Both the position numbers and the translations under genes were made by a program. DNA of 49,760 nucleotides from Clostridium sp. (GTDB lineage: Bacteria > Bacillota > Clostridia > Clostridiales > Clostridiaceae): positions 1 through 49,760 of the forward strand of contig JARLHR010000198.1 of the NCBI GenBank assembly GCA_031292145.1, in the 5' to 3' direction. The notes under the pieces were generated by a model. That model did not search any database, had not been told where the DNA came from, and was given only the letters and a program-made list of their open reading frames with translations. Shown in pieces: positions 25,586 to 49,089 of the stretch. Numbering within the stretch: the first letter of the stretch is position 1; every line of letters starts with the position of its first letter.

Positions 25586-25808
25586 ACATATACTTTACCA
25601 GAAAGAATGGATACTCTTTTGTGCAGTGTTGCATTGAGAATATAGCTGTAGGTATTTCTTCATTAGAAGTTGTTCCATTTATGCTTGTCCTCAGCTTGCC
25701 TGAGGAGCAAGCATAAATGGGCACAACTTCTAATGTTAGAAATCCACAGCTATATTCTCTAGCAACCGAAACAACAGAGTATCTATTCTTTCGGTCAACA
25801 TGTGTATA
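25586..25808 (+). repeat. Family B co-varying long hairpin, copy 1
   Basis: A stem of about 220 nt is nearly continuous: outer arms GAAAGAATGGATACT/AGTATCTATTCTTTC, middle arms GAGAATATAGCTGT/ACAGCTATATTCTC, and a core GTTGTTCCATTTATGCTTG / CAAGCATAAATGGGCACAAC capped by TCCTCAG-CTTGC-CTGAGGA. The core bulges (an extra C in TGGGCAC, an extra G in GGAGCAAGC) recur in the copies at 37735 and 48772, although paired bases differ. It occupies the thiC-thiM gap and begins just past the thiC stop, antisense to the operon by core polarity. Confidence 0.85.
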
Positions 25809-25810
25809 AT

Positions 25811-27121
25811 TTATTTTTGATCAAAAAGTTCTACTTTATCACCATTTAAAATTCTATTCGTAGTTCTTACTGCACACATTTTTCCACACATAGAACAGCT
25901 ATGTTGATCTTCTGGTGGTATGCTTTCAAAATATTCTCTAGCTTTCTTACCATCAATGGCGATCTTAAACATTTCTTCCCAATCTAATTTTTGACGAGCA
26001 TCTGCCATTGCATTATCTCTGTCTCTCGCCCCTGGAAGACCATTAGCTATATCTGCTGCATGTGCTGCGATCTTTGATGCAATAATTCCTTCTTTAACAT
26101 CTGATAAATCTGGAAGTCTTAAATGCTCAGCAGGTGTTACATAGCAAAGGAAGTTTGCTCCGTGAGTTGCTGCAATAGCTCCTCCAATAGCTGATGTAAT
26201 ATGATCATATCCTGGAGCAATATCTGTAACAAGTGGTCCTAGCACATAGAATGGTGCACCATGGCATAATCTTTTTTCAATTTGCATATTAGCCGCGATC
26301 TCATTTATAGCCATATGTCCTGGCCCTTCAATCATAACTTGAACATCTTTTTCCCAAGCTCTTTTTGTTAATAGACCTAATTCTATAAGTTCAGTAACTT
26401 GCCCTGCATCAGTTGAATCATCAAGACAACCTGGTCTCATTGCATCTCCAAGACTTATTGTTACATCATATTCTCTAAGAATTTCAAGTAATTCATCGTA
26501 ATATTCATAAAATGGATTTTCATTTCCTGTCATTTCCATCCAAGCAAATAGTAAAGACCCTCCACGAGAAACAATATTTAATCTTCTCTTATCTTCCTTA
26601 AATAATGAAACTGTTCTTTTGTTTATACCAGCATGAATAGTAACAAAATCAACACCAGCTTTAGCATGAGCCCTAACTACATCTAGAAAATCTTTAGCTT
26701 TTATATCTAAAAGATCTTTTTCAAGATATCCAATTGCATCATACATTGGAACTGTTCCTATCATAGCTGGAGAATATTCAATAAGTTTTTCTCTAAATTC
26801 CTGAGTCTTTCCATAGTTACTTAAATCCATTATAGCTTCAGCACCGAAATCAATTGCCATCTTTACTTTTTCCATTTCTCTGCAATAGTCAACTGAGTCT
26901 CCTGAAATCCCCAAGTTTACATTTATCTTTGTTCTAAGCCCATCACCAATTCCTTCTGGACTAAGTGATTTATGATTAATATTAGCTGGAATTGCTACTT
27001 TTCCTTCCGCTACTAACTTCATTAATTTTTCTTCTGAAATATTTTCTTTCTCAGCTACTACCTTCATTTCCTTAGTAACTATACCTTTTTTAGCTGCTTC
27101 CATTTGTGTTTTGTAATTCAT
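25811..27121 (-). CDS. thiC: Phosphomethylpyrimidine synthase ThiC
   Basis: The 436-residue radical-SAM enzyme converts aminoimidazole ribotide to HMP phosphate. It is the short form common in Firmicutes, lacking the N-terminal extension of the 600-residue enterobacterial enzyme. It shows [83 protein letters not shown] and the C-terminal cluster motif [11 protein letters not shown] 27121 follows TAAGGAGATAG. It lies 65 nt after thiD in the TPP-controlled cluster. Confidence 0.97.
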
Positions 27122-28815: not shown

Positions 28816-28843
28816 AATAAATACATGCACAAAATATTAATAT

Positions 28844-28932
28844 ACTTCCCTACGTTGGTATTAACCAAATCAGGTTATAAGAGTTTAGGAAATCAATCAT
28901 TCCAATCTCAGCCAAAATATTAGCTCCCCTAG
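28844..28932 (-). promoter_or_regulatory. TPP riboswitch (THI element)
   Basis: The minus strand shows the diagnostic TPP-aptamer blocks in order: ACTAGGGGAGC, GGCTGAGATTGG, ACCTGATTTGGTTAATACCA and ACGTAGGGAAGT. The GGCTGAGA pyrimidine-sensing loop and the CTGAT..GGTTAATACC pyrophosphate arm are conserved. With the terminator at 28783-28815 it should shut off thiW-thiD-thiC-thiM when TPP is plentiful. Confidence 0.95.
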
Positions 28933-28966
28933 TTATTCAATTTATAAAATTTTCTTTCACAACTTA

Positions 28967-37734: not shown

Positions 37735-37920
37735 GAAATGAGATACATGTTTATTACGCAGGACTATGAAAATATCGCTGAAAGCGCTAAAAGGAAGGCT
37801 GTGCCCAATTTAGCTTGCTCCAACTATTCAGTTGGACAAGCAAAATTGGAACAGCCTTCCTTTAAGTGCTTTTGACAGCTTATTTTCAAATGCCTGCTTC
37901 ACAAACATGTATCTCATTTC
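37735..37920 (-). repeat. Family B co-varying long hairpin, copy 2
   Basis: The 186-bp palindrome has an 18-bp perfect outer stem (GAAATGAGATACATGTTT and its inverse). Read on the minus strand, the core is CTGTTCCAATTTTGCTTG, TCC-AACT-GAAT-AGTT-GGAG, CAAGCTAAATTGGGCACAG. It lies between the histidine kinase stop and the apbE promoter, sense to both by core polarity. It resembles the 48772 copy closely and the 25586 copy more distantly. Confidence 0.88.
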
Positions 37921-37951: not shown

Positions 37952-39484
37952 CTAATTGTCAATTTTCATGTAGACAGTAAATGTTGTTCCAACATTCACT
38001 TCACTTTCCACCTCAATTTCTCCACCATTGCTGTCTATTATAGATTTTACTATAGAAAGCCCTAATCCATAGCCTCCATGTACTCTTGATCTATGACTTT
38101 CACTTCTAAAAAATCTATCATATATTTTAGCAATATCTTTTTCTGGTATTCCTGTTCCATTATCTTTTACCTTTAAAACTACAAATTCTTTATTATTTAA
38201 TCTTTCCATATCTGTAGATATAGTTATAACCCCATTATTCTTATCTGTATGAAGTACAGCATTTTGAGTTAAGTTAAATATAACCTGCTTTATTTGATCT
38301 CTATTTATAATTGCCTTTATATTGTCTTTTAATTCAAGCTGTAATAACCTATTTTTGCAAAGTATTTTAAGCTGCGGTTCAATTTCTTGTATTAATTCAT
38401 TTACATTTTCATTTTTCATTTCTAAAATTGGTTTTTGATCTAGCCTAGTTAAAATCAAAAGATCATTTACTAATTTTGTAAGCCTTTCACTTTCCATCAA
38501 TATGCTATTTAATGCTAAATCTAACTGATTTTTATTTTTAGCTGCGCCTAGTAATAAAACTTCCACAAAGCCATGAATTGAAGTTAATGGCGTTCGCAGT
38601 TCATGAGATGCATCTGAGACAAACCTTCTCATTTTTTCCTTAATATATTGCTCCTTCTCAAAAGATTCTTGTATTCTCGCAAGCATAATATTAAAGGATT
38701 TTGCTAATCTATCAATTTCCAATTGACCATTTTCTTCTATAAGTCTTGTATCTAAATCAGTTACACTTATTCCTTCGACAGTATCAGTTATATTATATAA
38801 CGGCTTTAATGCTCGATTAAAAATAGTAATTCCAAGTATTGTCCCCATTATAAGAATTATAATTGAAAGGCCAATATGTACATATTCTTGCATATTTAAA
38901 ATATTTGTAATATCATCTATTGGTGTACTTAATTGTATTAATCCCGATGGTGAGTCTAAATCACCCACTTTTAGCCATACAGCCATTTGGTAATTGTTAT
39001 TTTTATCTTTTATAATTTCATATATACTATCCAAATTGCCACTTTTATTGCAAATACTTATATACTGCTCTTTTGAAAGCACAGGGACTGGTATTGCTCC
39101 TATTTTCTGTTCAGTTGCCTGCTTAGAATCACTATCCCAATCATTGTTCTCACTAGGTATATCTGCATTCCTTCTTTCACCTAGCAACGCTCCATTTTTA
39201 TCTATTACAGCTGAACTCATACTTTTATCCCATAAGTTCTTTAGAATTTCCTGAGCATCACTTTCCGTTATATCCTTTATATTTTCTTTTGACAAACTTC
39301 CTAAATCTAGACTATGGAACCTTTCCCGCAGTACTTGTGCTTTTGTTTTATATAAATAGTTCTTCATACTTATATACTGAAAAATCCCCATTGTAGGTAG
39401 TAAAATAATTAATATCATAAAGAAACGAAATAACAATTGCCATTTTAAACTCTTTATTTTAAACTTACTTTTTAGCTTCTTCAT
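37952..39484 (-). CDS. Sensor histidine kinase
   Basis: The 510-residue membrane kinase has a first membrane segment at about 14-36, an extracytosolic sensor domain (about 37-205), a second segment (about 205-225) and a HAMP domain. The HisKA motif is SDASHELRTPLTSIHGF and the ATPase has NAVLHTD, DNGTGIPEKD and GYGLGLSIV. Its ATG overlaps the regulator's stop (ATGA), so the pair is co-translated. The signal is unknown; its position beside apbE and the shared operators suggest it controls the flavin electron-transfer genes. Confidence 0.93.
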   Translation of the reverse strand: MKKLKSKFKIKSLKWQLLFRFFMILIILLPTMGIFQYISMKNYLYKTKAQVLRERFHSLDLGSLSKENIKDITESDAQEILKNLWDKSMSSAVIDKNGALLGERRNADIPSENNDWDSDSKQATEQKIGAIPVPVLSKEQYISICNKSGNLDSIYEIIKDKNNNYQMAVWLKVGDLDSPSGLIQLSTPIDDITNILNMQEYVHIGLSIIILIMGTILGITIFNRALKPLYNITDTVEGISVTDLDTRLIEENGQLEIDRLAKSFNIMLARIQESFEKEQYIKEKMRRFVSDASHELRTPLTSIHGFVEVLLLGAAKNKNQLDLALNSILMESERLTKLVNDLLILTRLDQKPILEMKNENVNELIQEIEPQLKILCKNRLLQLELKDNIKAIINRDQIKQVIFNLTQNAVLHTDKNNGVITISTDMERLNNKEFVVLKVKDNGTGIPEKDIAKIYDRFFRSESHRSRVHGGYGLGLSIVKSIIDSNGGEIEVESEVNVGTTFTVYMKIDN

Positions 39485-47678: not shown

Positions 47679-48689
47679 TTGGCTACTATAAAGGAAATCG
47701 CATCTCTTGCAGAAGTTTCTATATCAACGGTTTCTCGAGTTTTAAATTTTGATGAAACATTAAATGTTAGTAATTCCAAAAGAAAAAAAATATTAAAAAT
47801 TGCAGATGAACTTGAATATATACCATTGAAAGCTAAAAAGATTAAAAATAAAGGTTTGAAGGATATAGGACTTATTTATTGGTATAATTATAAAGAAGAA
47901 TTAGAAGATCCATATTATTTATCAATAAGACTAGCTGCTGAAAAAAAATGTAATGAACATAACTTAAATTTAATCAAGTTGACAGAGAATAGTGACGTTG
48001 ATGATATTAGTAAAGTTAACGGAATAATTGCAATTGGCAAATTTAATTCTGAAACCATAGAAAAATTATCTAATGAAAACGAAAATATAGTTTTTGTAGA
48101 TTTTTCTCCTAATGAAAATAAATTTGATTCTGTACTGATAGATGCAGGAAAGGCAACAACAAAAGCATTAAACTATTTATATGAATTAGGTCATAGAAAA
48201 ATAGGTTTTATTGGCGGTAAAAATACTGATAACTTTTCTATTGAGGACATATATATTGATGAAAGAGCGGTTAAATATAAAGAATTTATGTTAGAAAAAG
48301 ATATATATAATCCTGACTACATATATACAACAGAAAAATATACTTTCAAATCAGGATATAATCTAATGCTTAAAGCATTAAAGTTTGAAAATAGACCAAC
48401 GGCATTTTTTCTTGGAAATGATACTATGGCTATTGGAGCATATAAAGCAATTTCTGAAAATAACTTATCAGTTCCAGATGATATAAGCATTATTGGTTTT
48501 AATGATCAGCCTAGTGCCAAATACATGATTCCTGCATTAACAACGGTGCGCATTCCAAGTGAATATTTAGGAAATGCTGCTGTTGATTTGTTACTTGAAA
48601 ATCTTAGTTTTAATAGAGGTTATAACAAAAAAGTAATTATACCAACTGAATTTAAAATTCGAGAAAGCTGCAAAAAATATGCACCTTAA
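47679..48689 (+). CDS. LacI-family transcriptional regulator
   Basis: The 336-residue protein has an N-terminal LacI helix-turn-helix (TIKEIASLAEVSISTVSRVL, residues 3-22) and a periplasmic-binding-protein-like effector domain (about 60-330; FLGNDTMAIGAYKAI, PDDISIIGFNDQPSAKYMIP, LTTVRIP). It starts with TTG at 47679, 8 nt after GGGAGG. It faces the beta-galactosidase gene at 49144, so galactoside control (EbgR/GanR-like) is likely. The last codons and stop are partly duplicated downstream. Confidence 0.9.
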   Translation: MATIKEIASLAEVSISTVSRVLNFDETLNVSNSKRKKILKIADELEYIPLKAKKIKNKGLKDIGLIYWYNYKEELEDPYYLSIRLAAEKKCNEHNLNLIKLTENSDVDDISKVNGIIAIGKFNSETIEKLSNENENIVFVDFSPNENKFDSVLIDAGKATTKALNYLYELGHRKIGFIGGKNTDNFSIEDIYIDERAVKYKEFMLEKDIYNPDYIYTTEKYTFKSGYNLMLKALKFENRPTAFFLGNDTMAIGAYKAISENNLSVPDDISIIGFNDQPSAKYMIPALTTVRIPSEYLGNAAVDLLLENLSFNRGYNKKVIIPTEFKIRESCKKYAP

Positions 48690-48744
48690 AAAAAGCACGT
48701 AGTGCAACAAAAATCATTTCACCTTAAAAAAAGCGCGTAGTGCA
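48682..48744. repeat. Tandem duplication of the lacI-type gene end
   Basis: CACCTTAAAAAAAGCACGTA (48682-48706 with GTGCA) recurs after 38 bp as CACCTTAAAAAAAGCGCGTA (48720-48744 with GTGCA). Each carries a small GCAC-TAC-GTGC stem followed by TTTTTTT on the minus strand, so they may be tandem weak terminators against transcripts from the galactosidase side. Confidence 0.6.
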
Positions 48745-48771
48745 AAAATTAAAATTCTGTGGTAACTTACC

Positions 48772-48956
48772 GAAATTAAATACATTTTTATGACCCAGGA
48801 CTATGAAAATTTCGCTGAAAGCACTAAATGGAAGCTTGCCCCCACATTAGCTTGCTCCCACTTTCAGTGTGACAAGCTAATGTGGAACAAGCTTCCATTA
48901 AGTGCTTTTAGCAGCTCATTTTCAAATGCCTGCTTCACAAAAATGTATTTGATTTC
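48772..48956 (-). repeat. Family B co-varying long hairpin, copy 3
   Basis: The 185-bp palindrome has outer arms GAAATTAAATACATTTTT and AAAAATGTATTTGATTTC. On the minus strand the core is CTTGTTCCACATTAGCTTG, TCA-CACT-GAA-AGTG-GGAG, CAAGCTAATGTGGGGGCAAG. Outer parts match the copy at 37735 closely; inner paired segments differ but remain paired. It lies in the 454-bp gap between the convergent LacI and galactosidase genes. Confidence 0.88.
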
Positions 48957-49089
48957 TAGCGAAGATATCCACTTAAGATTTAGCAAATATGTAAACATGC
49001 TTATCTAATAAGTGAAACATATAGTTTATCTATATAAAACTTAATAAACTGCAATAAATACATATATTGTTTTCTCAACATAGTACTTT

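Follow-up and report, generated by a model that had tools for sequence, protein, structure and literature searches.

The long hairpins in the stretch of Clostridium sp. DNA analysed here (49,760 nucleotides, hereafter the window) are copies of non-autonomous transposons (MITEs) of about 275-315 bp that have inserted at TA. The best overall explanation, to which we give a probability of about 0.68, combines a MITE whose ends in subfamilies A and B are of IS630 type, a covarying fold, and a constraint on one strand, likely as RNA, that acts on the lineage of copies that keeps spreading.

Three such hairpins lie in the window, and the co-varying stems named in a preliminary description are present in them, with two corrections of detail: ATTTT/TAAAT in copy 2 pairs at four of five positions, and GCTTGT/GCAAGC in copy 3 contains one T-G. 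The three had been described as copies of one family. Their shared layout holds, and the single family does not, since copy 1 belongs to subfamily A and copies 2 and 3 to subfamily B, and far more copies exist. The strand listed for copy 2 is the one homologous to GTTGTTCC, which reads GCTGTTCC at that copy; copy 1 has the opposite orientation to copies 2 and 3. No listed ORF of at least 80 aa overlaps any of the three hairpins. Directly before copy 3, at 48680-48750 of the window, are two near-identical units CACCTTAAAAAAAGC(A/G)CGTAGTGCAA, and a looser similar block occurs in a related genome (G003).

Table 1. Hairpins, terminal sequences and adjoining genes of the three window copies; gene names are presumed from the translations.
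Feature	Position	Strand	Remark
Hairpin, A-subfamily MITE, copy 1	25586..25808	+	terminal repeats not discernible by eye
Hairpin, B-subfamily MITE, copy 2	37735..37920	-	covariance-model match G000:C97:37735-37920:-
Left terminal TATAGATG of copy 2	~37712		right terminal repeat not discernible by eye
Histidine kinase-like gene	37952..39484	-	stop adjoins copy 2
LacI-type regulator-like gene	47679..48689	+	ends upstream of copy 3
Hairpin, B-subfamily MITE, copy 3	48772..48956	-	profile match 48743-49033
Right end TATCTATA of copy 3	~49027-49034		left terminal repeat not discernible by eye

Compensatory changes of Watson-Crick type maintain the hairpin, and certain mismatches within it are kept open. 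For subfamily B, 234 unique copies were reduced to 118 non-redundant ones (mean identity 66%) and analysed with a home-made, tree-aware covariation test, distinct from R-scape, in which 60 null alignments were evolved on the tree of the 118 copies. At E <0.05, 20 of about 46,700 column pairs are significant; 19 fall in one nested hairpin, and the twentieth, 65/207, is a co-varying mismatch. This hairpin comprises 83 pairs in the 118 copies and is 92% Watson-Crick, and enlarged sets gave 83 pairs for A (69 copies), 79 for B (133 copies) and 89 for C (44 copies). Rows were excluded if they scored below 90 bits (118-copy set) or 60 bits (enlarged sets), had more than 15% gaps, were cut by a locus end or lay far from the model length, and sequences more than 95% identical (118-copy set) or 97% identical (enlarged sets) were removed as redundant. 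In a B alignment of 43 copies, which are 43 of 48 sequences picked from the 118 and include one, L111:7726-7910, that looks reversed and was retained, 94.5% of cells pair, compared with 80.2% in shuffles and 36-48% when the arms are slid by 1-3 columns. Both sides have changed in 55 of its 73 pairs, and none of 500 shuffles reaches the alignment in any of five measures, which excludes chance as the source of the pairing.

Certain mismatches stay fixed within the co-varying stems. In B, A.A is found in 116 of 118 copies, T.C in 110 of 117 and C.T in 108 of 117. At 65/207 the letters vary on both sides and remain non-Watson-Crick in 94%; the T.G seen there on the complementary strand (16 of 117) is C.A on the GTTGTTCC strand. 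On the latter strand, columns 208-206/64-66 read G.A, N.N, A.G, a type of loop that is stable in RNA and DNA. Constant bulges within co-varying stems were the grounds on which the preliminary description had held the folded form to be under selection; a constraint on the fold is borne out by the fixed bulges and mismatches and by the significant covariation in the larger alignment.

Compensatory changes of this kind might also be mutational rather than selected, if template switching during replication of the palindrome copied one arm onto the other, a mechanism reported for RNA genes in PMC8794818. Double changes are indeed common and mostly Watson-Crick, and G003 is without 155 bp of a hairpin present in G014, between two copies of a short repeat, which we take for a deletion that arose when the palindrome was replicated. 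Several observations speak against such copying: (i) It would erase mismatches, yet specific ones are fixed in more than 90% of copies and the variable position 65/207 stays non-Watson-Crick. (ii) Singles precede doubles: the ratio of double to single changes is 0.09-0.31 at flank divergences of 0.03-0.20 and about 1.5 above 0.4, with 2-15 pairs in each low bin and a 7-pair bin at 0.01-0.03 that runs opposite to the trend (0.57). (iii) Arm copying predicts no strand preference, whereas one is seen, as described below. We consider it an improbable source of the covariation.

With Rfam 15, the only family at gathering score in the window is a TPP riboswitch (28830-28940, - strand), near what we take from the translations to be thiamine-type genes. 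In four further loci (L142, L329, L369 and L229, representing B, A and C by single copies, plus a G003 locus; E up to 1), the elements gave only microRNA-type matches far under the gathering scores. Identity with an Rfam family was thus rejected for the window, these copies and the G003 locus, in line with the earlier statement that no named family has this form. The titles and abstract openings of the literature searched, which covered sources outside the subscription journals and ISfinder, hold no name for the family.

Changes toward wobble pairs lean to one strand as the constrained one, in a direction shared by the three subfamilies. Read on the GTTGTTCC strand, internal branches carry changes to G-U and to A-C in ratios of 18:8 in A, 31:13 in B and 10:4 in C (pooled 59:25), compared with 90:76, 140:116 and 59:50 (pooled 289:242) on terminal branches; pairs below 80% Watson-Crick were left out of this count. 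The pooled difference has a Fisher p of 0.0065, with 0.20, 0.07 and 0.26 for A, B and C singly, and in the stricter B set of 118 copies the ratios are 27:3 internally and 132:97 terminally (p 0.0005). The copies share ancestry, so that per-copy p-values are too small. This branch pattern is suggestive of selection acting in the lineage that spreads, followed by decay or drift once a copy has inserted. Because terminal branches are slightly skewed as well (binomial p 0.046), part of the skew may be mutation bias, and the strand effect is modest.

Predicted RNA energies are lower on the GTTGTTCC strand in 59 of 69 A copies, 123 of 133 B copies and 39 of 44 C copies (221 of 246 in total). The difference comes mostly from G-U pairs (4.0-5.1 per copy vs. 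1.2-1.7), and the asymmetry falls from 7.6-10.3 to 1.7-2.9 kcal/mol once G-U is forbidden. At two core positions, U.G or U.A is found in 42 and 38 of the 43 aligned B copies, respectively. Strand-symmetric wobble was dropped as a description given the branch counts and strand energies. Still, G-U is rare beside RNase P: in the MITE core, G-U and A-C together amount to about 3% at a strand ratio of about 2:1 (in B, in the letters of the complementary strand, 103 wobble and 187 A-C of 8794 cells), while the RNase P of the genus has 262 G-U and 8 A-C of 1709 paired cells, or 30 vs. 8 in mainly Watson-Crick pairs, in a control drawn from 18 genomes, below the family cut-off, and placed on a predicted consensus fold, which favours G-U. 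We take the control sequences to be RNase P by their motif. A TPP riboswitch was rejected as a wobble control, its helices being too conserved and its consensus fold poor. When one copy and its flanks were scanned for promoters, 4 sites came up, compared with a shuffle mean of 2.2.

The selected form could instead be single-stranded or cruciform DNA that arises in transposition. Near-strict Watson-Crick pairing with little wobble would suit DNA, as would selection that seemingly acts in the mobile lineage and an internal loop that is stable in DNA too. Predicted DNA energies also lean to the GTTGTTCC strand, though less strongly than the RNA energies (53 of 69 copies in A, 121 of 133 in B and 33 of 44 in C). 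However, the asymmetry is mainly one of G-U pairs, as its fall without them indicates, and IS630-type transposases are thought to work on double-stranded ends. We regard a DNA form as unlikely. There is moderate support for a constrained molecule that is a single strand of one polarity, that of GTTGTTCC, and most likely RNA; the odds lean toward this one-strand RNA reading, short of proof.

The ends and target site of the elements identify their class. Well-kept copies have flanks in which TA is followed by TAGATA... on one side and ...TATCTA is followed by TA on the other. In B these two ends are separated by about 310 bp, and the seeds of A and C measure 276 and 291 bp. We compared 200 kb each of G003 and G014, whose long alignments mostly show about 95-98% identity (73% in one of 8.5 kb). 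A site filled in G003 and empty in G014 shows a clean doubling of TA (overlap 2), and a second polymorphic site, of subfamily C, is less clean, with a join overlap of 4 bases, so that one of two sites is clean; two of the four candidate "empty" rows are fragments rather than empty sites. Insertions differ from relative to relative. Copy 1 lies directly behind the stop codon of a presumed thiC-like gene (25811-27121, - strand, named from its translation), and at this locus an A-type element is found in the genome of the window (G000), G032 and G050, a B-type element in G008 and a remnant in G004, with no element discernible in the other relatives compared. In G003, elements of B and A follow one another head to tail and share end sequences. 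The same genome has A, B and C elements in a row at L212 4907-5753, as if element ends were favoured targets.

A long imperfect hairpin with fixed bulges could also be a substrate of an HUH/Y1 (IS200/IS605-like) transposase or of a tyrosine recombinase, as the preliminary description had proposed. This proposal is contradicted, because the elements have terminal inverted repeats on either side, insert at TA and have a likely IS630-family partner (described below) with winged-helix and DDE_3 domains, all of them features of a DDE element. IS200/IS605 elements have neither terminal inverted repeats nor target duplication, and both are present here. We give such a substrate next to no credence.

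Copy number is high and, judged from the three window hairpins, the elements carry no transposase of their own, as is characteristic of MITEs. A covariance model places B-type hairpins at no fewer than 149 distinct sites (at least) in the genome of the window: all 150 scored candidates, of 6550 at first look, matched at E <=4.1e-15, one of them being the second strand of another, and the count is a lower bound that does not include window copy 1, an A element. An exact core pattern occurs at 51 places in this genome (backwards control: 0), a similarity search listed 55 matches, second-strand ones included, and 47 copies were aligned from extracted stretches. A C-type query gave 43 matches among 40 candidates scored there, some perhaps A-type or second-strand; compared by eye, subfamily C has the layout of A and B in different letters. 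Most of about 10 related Clostridium genomes hold tens of scored copies. The hairpin of copy 3 matches 16 of 206 family genomes, 12 of them (the genome of the window counted) at E <=4e-27 and all in one genus, and the other 4 weakly. The core pattern is also found in contigs named C. chromiireducens DSM 23318, C. beijerinckii HUN142, Clostridium sp. LS and MAG BP5.bin74 (34 stretches in total), and in 3 contigs of a viral collection.

Some copies vary in build. Three B-type copies of two variants (L143 471-852, L144 2996-3376 and L158 1596-1975) have in common an insert of about 70 bp, at an identical position in one arm, which could stem either from modules exchanged among copies or from a nested insertion of older date. 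In some C-type copies (L218, L224, L210; genomes G014 and G003, with several listed in G014), the apical loop holds an extra 50-100 bp made of small hairpins. A mini-element of 97 bp in L175 (G023), with TATAGATA...TATCTATA ends and without the long hairpin, lies between ApbE-like and kinase-like genes.

The candidate partner is a 1.2-kb insertion sequence in G003 (L229 931-2131), flanked immediately by a C-type MITE on one side and a B-type MITE on the other. It has two overlapping transposase frames that join at an A-run; programmed frameshifting is a trait of the IS630 family. The first frame contains winged-helix domains and scores 80 bits with the IS630 transposase model, under the cut-off, and the second reaches 107.3 bits against a cut-off of 100 (NF033545), with DDE_3 at E 6.6e-27. 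The ends of the insertion sequence match the A seed over 31-34 bp at 81-84% (one row: 43 bp at 74%), the B seed over 31-35 bp at 77-80% and the C seed weakly (E 0.5-1.8), and its interior gave no match to the MITE seeds better than E 0.48. A transposase whose own ends match, which the preliminary description had named as the thing to look for, is thus found for A and B. These sequence matches argue firmly for the IS630-family insertion sequence as the likely partner of the A and B elements and more weakly for the same role with C; because the C ends match it weakly, a different mover for C elements is possible.

Among the best 6 candidates in each of 68 genomes of the genus, the one full copy of this insertion sequence is the query itself in G003. 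Pieces occur in G004, several at contig ends, and weaker pieces in other genomes. Matches to its ends alone were found, among the candidates scored, in 8 of the 68 genomes (G000, G003, G004, G008, G014, G023, G024 and G030), and several of these are MITE copies by their coordinates. The genome of the window has 3 weak matches to the IS630 model (49 of 49 candidates scored), and the insertion sequence gives end matches only among the best 6 of 206 candidates there; a mover may be present within this genome. Two other candidates were rejected as partners: an IS630 element of G030, whose ends are different, and an IS630 remnant in the genome of the window, in which no matching ends were seen. A Cyclic di-GMP-II riboswitch lies at L229 2786-2869, close to the IS630-type element in G003.

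The setting of the copies is biased towards gene ends. In counts with simple-rule ORFs that pool several genomes, include some orthologous copies and stand without a random-TA null, the 150 copies flanked within 450 bp on each side by an ORF of 100 aa or more divide into 57 between convergent genes, 91 in tandem settings and 2 between a divergent pair. The gene next to the GTTGTTCC 3' end is directed at the element in 116 of the 150. By the same rules, 77 of 234 copies have an ORF of at least 80 codons reading into the GTTGTTCC 3' end, with the stop within -20 to +39 bases of that end in 50 of the 77, compared with 8 of 50 at the other element end. The element itself supplies the stop codon in 10 of 40 listed cases. 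Read-through RNA from neighbouring genes would mostly be of the strand opposite GTTGTTCC, and the sense strand of the LacI-like gene before copy 3 is likewise the complementary one. The gene-end bias could be due either to targeting or to survival.

This setting is also what might be expected of a structured RNA or 3'-end element that serves the host, e.g., a terminator or mRNA stabiliser, and has been copied around. Divergent gene pairs are almost avoided, one element end abuts stop codons, and in the gap that corresponds to copy 2 five relatives (G003, G004, G008, G014 and G032) have an inverted repeat with a T-run, terminator-like by eye, in place of the element. On the other hand, insertions vary among relatives, terminal branches show less of the wobble asymmetry, the one copy scanned gave no terminator-like site, and the strand favoured by G-U differs from the read-through strand of the abutting gene. 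A host-serving origin has, in our judgement, a slim chance of being correct.

In the explanation we prefer, an IS630-type transposase would act on the MITE ends and insert the element at TA, and the constraint on the fold would act on the lineage that keeps spreading, with single copies drifting after insertion. The folded strand might assist the IS630-type transposase on the element. It might alternatively make new insertions tolerable to the host, an option raised because the copies that have survived are located right after stop codons, with a single orientation. We tentatively entertain a more specific version, which we think possible and somewhat doubtful: the element would be a DDE transposon derivative with a structured RNA of its own, a folded transcript of one strand that is needed for spread, that has a loop in which two G.A pairs enclose an unconstrained middle position, and that helps transposition of the IS630 type (Tc1/mariner-like) or directs insertions to the ends of genes.

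Small hairpin elements of bacteria are often taken as passive leftovers. Here, three subfamilies hold one fold and keep open positions open while many stem letters change, and if an RNA is indeed read from one strand, this would set them apart from the usual run of such elements. A non-pathogenic, solvent-producing Clostridium with hundreds of natural variants allows a direct test of whether a DNA transposon depends on an RNA, or a single strand, in folded form.

Among known systems, the IS630/Tc1-mariner group is the closest by its machinery: the partner insertion sequence combines winged-helix and DDE_3 domains, two frames overlapping at an A-run, and TA ends. The MITE seeds differ from it in that they resemble the insertion sequence at the ends only. 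RUP of Streptococcus pneumoniae is a small intergenic element of 107 bp that is similar at its ends to an IS630-family insertion sequence (IS630-Spn1) and inserts at TA (PMC2229807), so that RUP and the Clostridium MITEs are alike in being small, in their IS630-like ends and in their target. By description they are set apart, as the passages on RUP in PMC2229807 give no other structure or function signature for its 107 bp, whereas the Clostridium MITEs of about 275-315 bp have 79-89 covarying pairs and fixed mismatches. The Correia/NEMIS elements of Neisseria are also MITEs with TA ends and hairpins, and their RNA hairpins are RNase III substrates (PMC2229807, PMC10969869). In the passages of these two sources that deal with them, neither subfamily-wide compensatory evolution nor fixed open positions are described; compared on that basis, the Clostridium MITEs show both.
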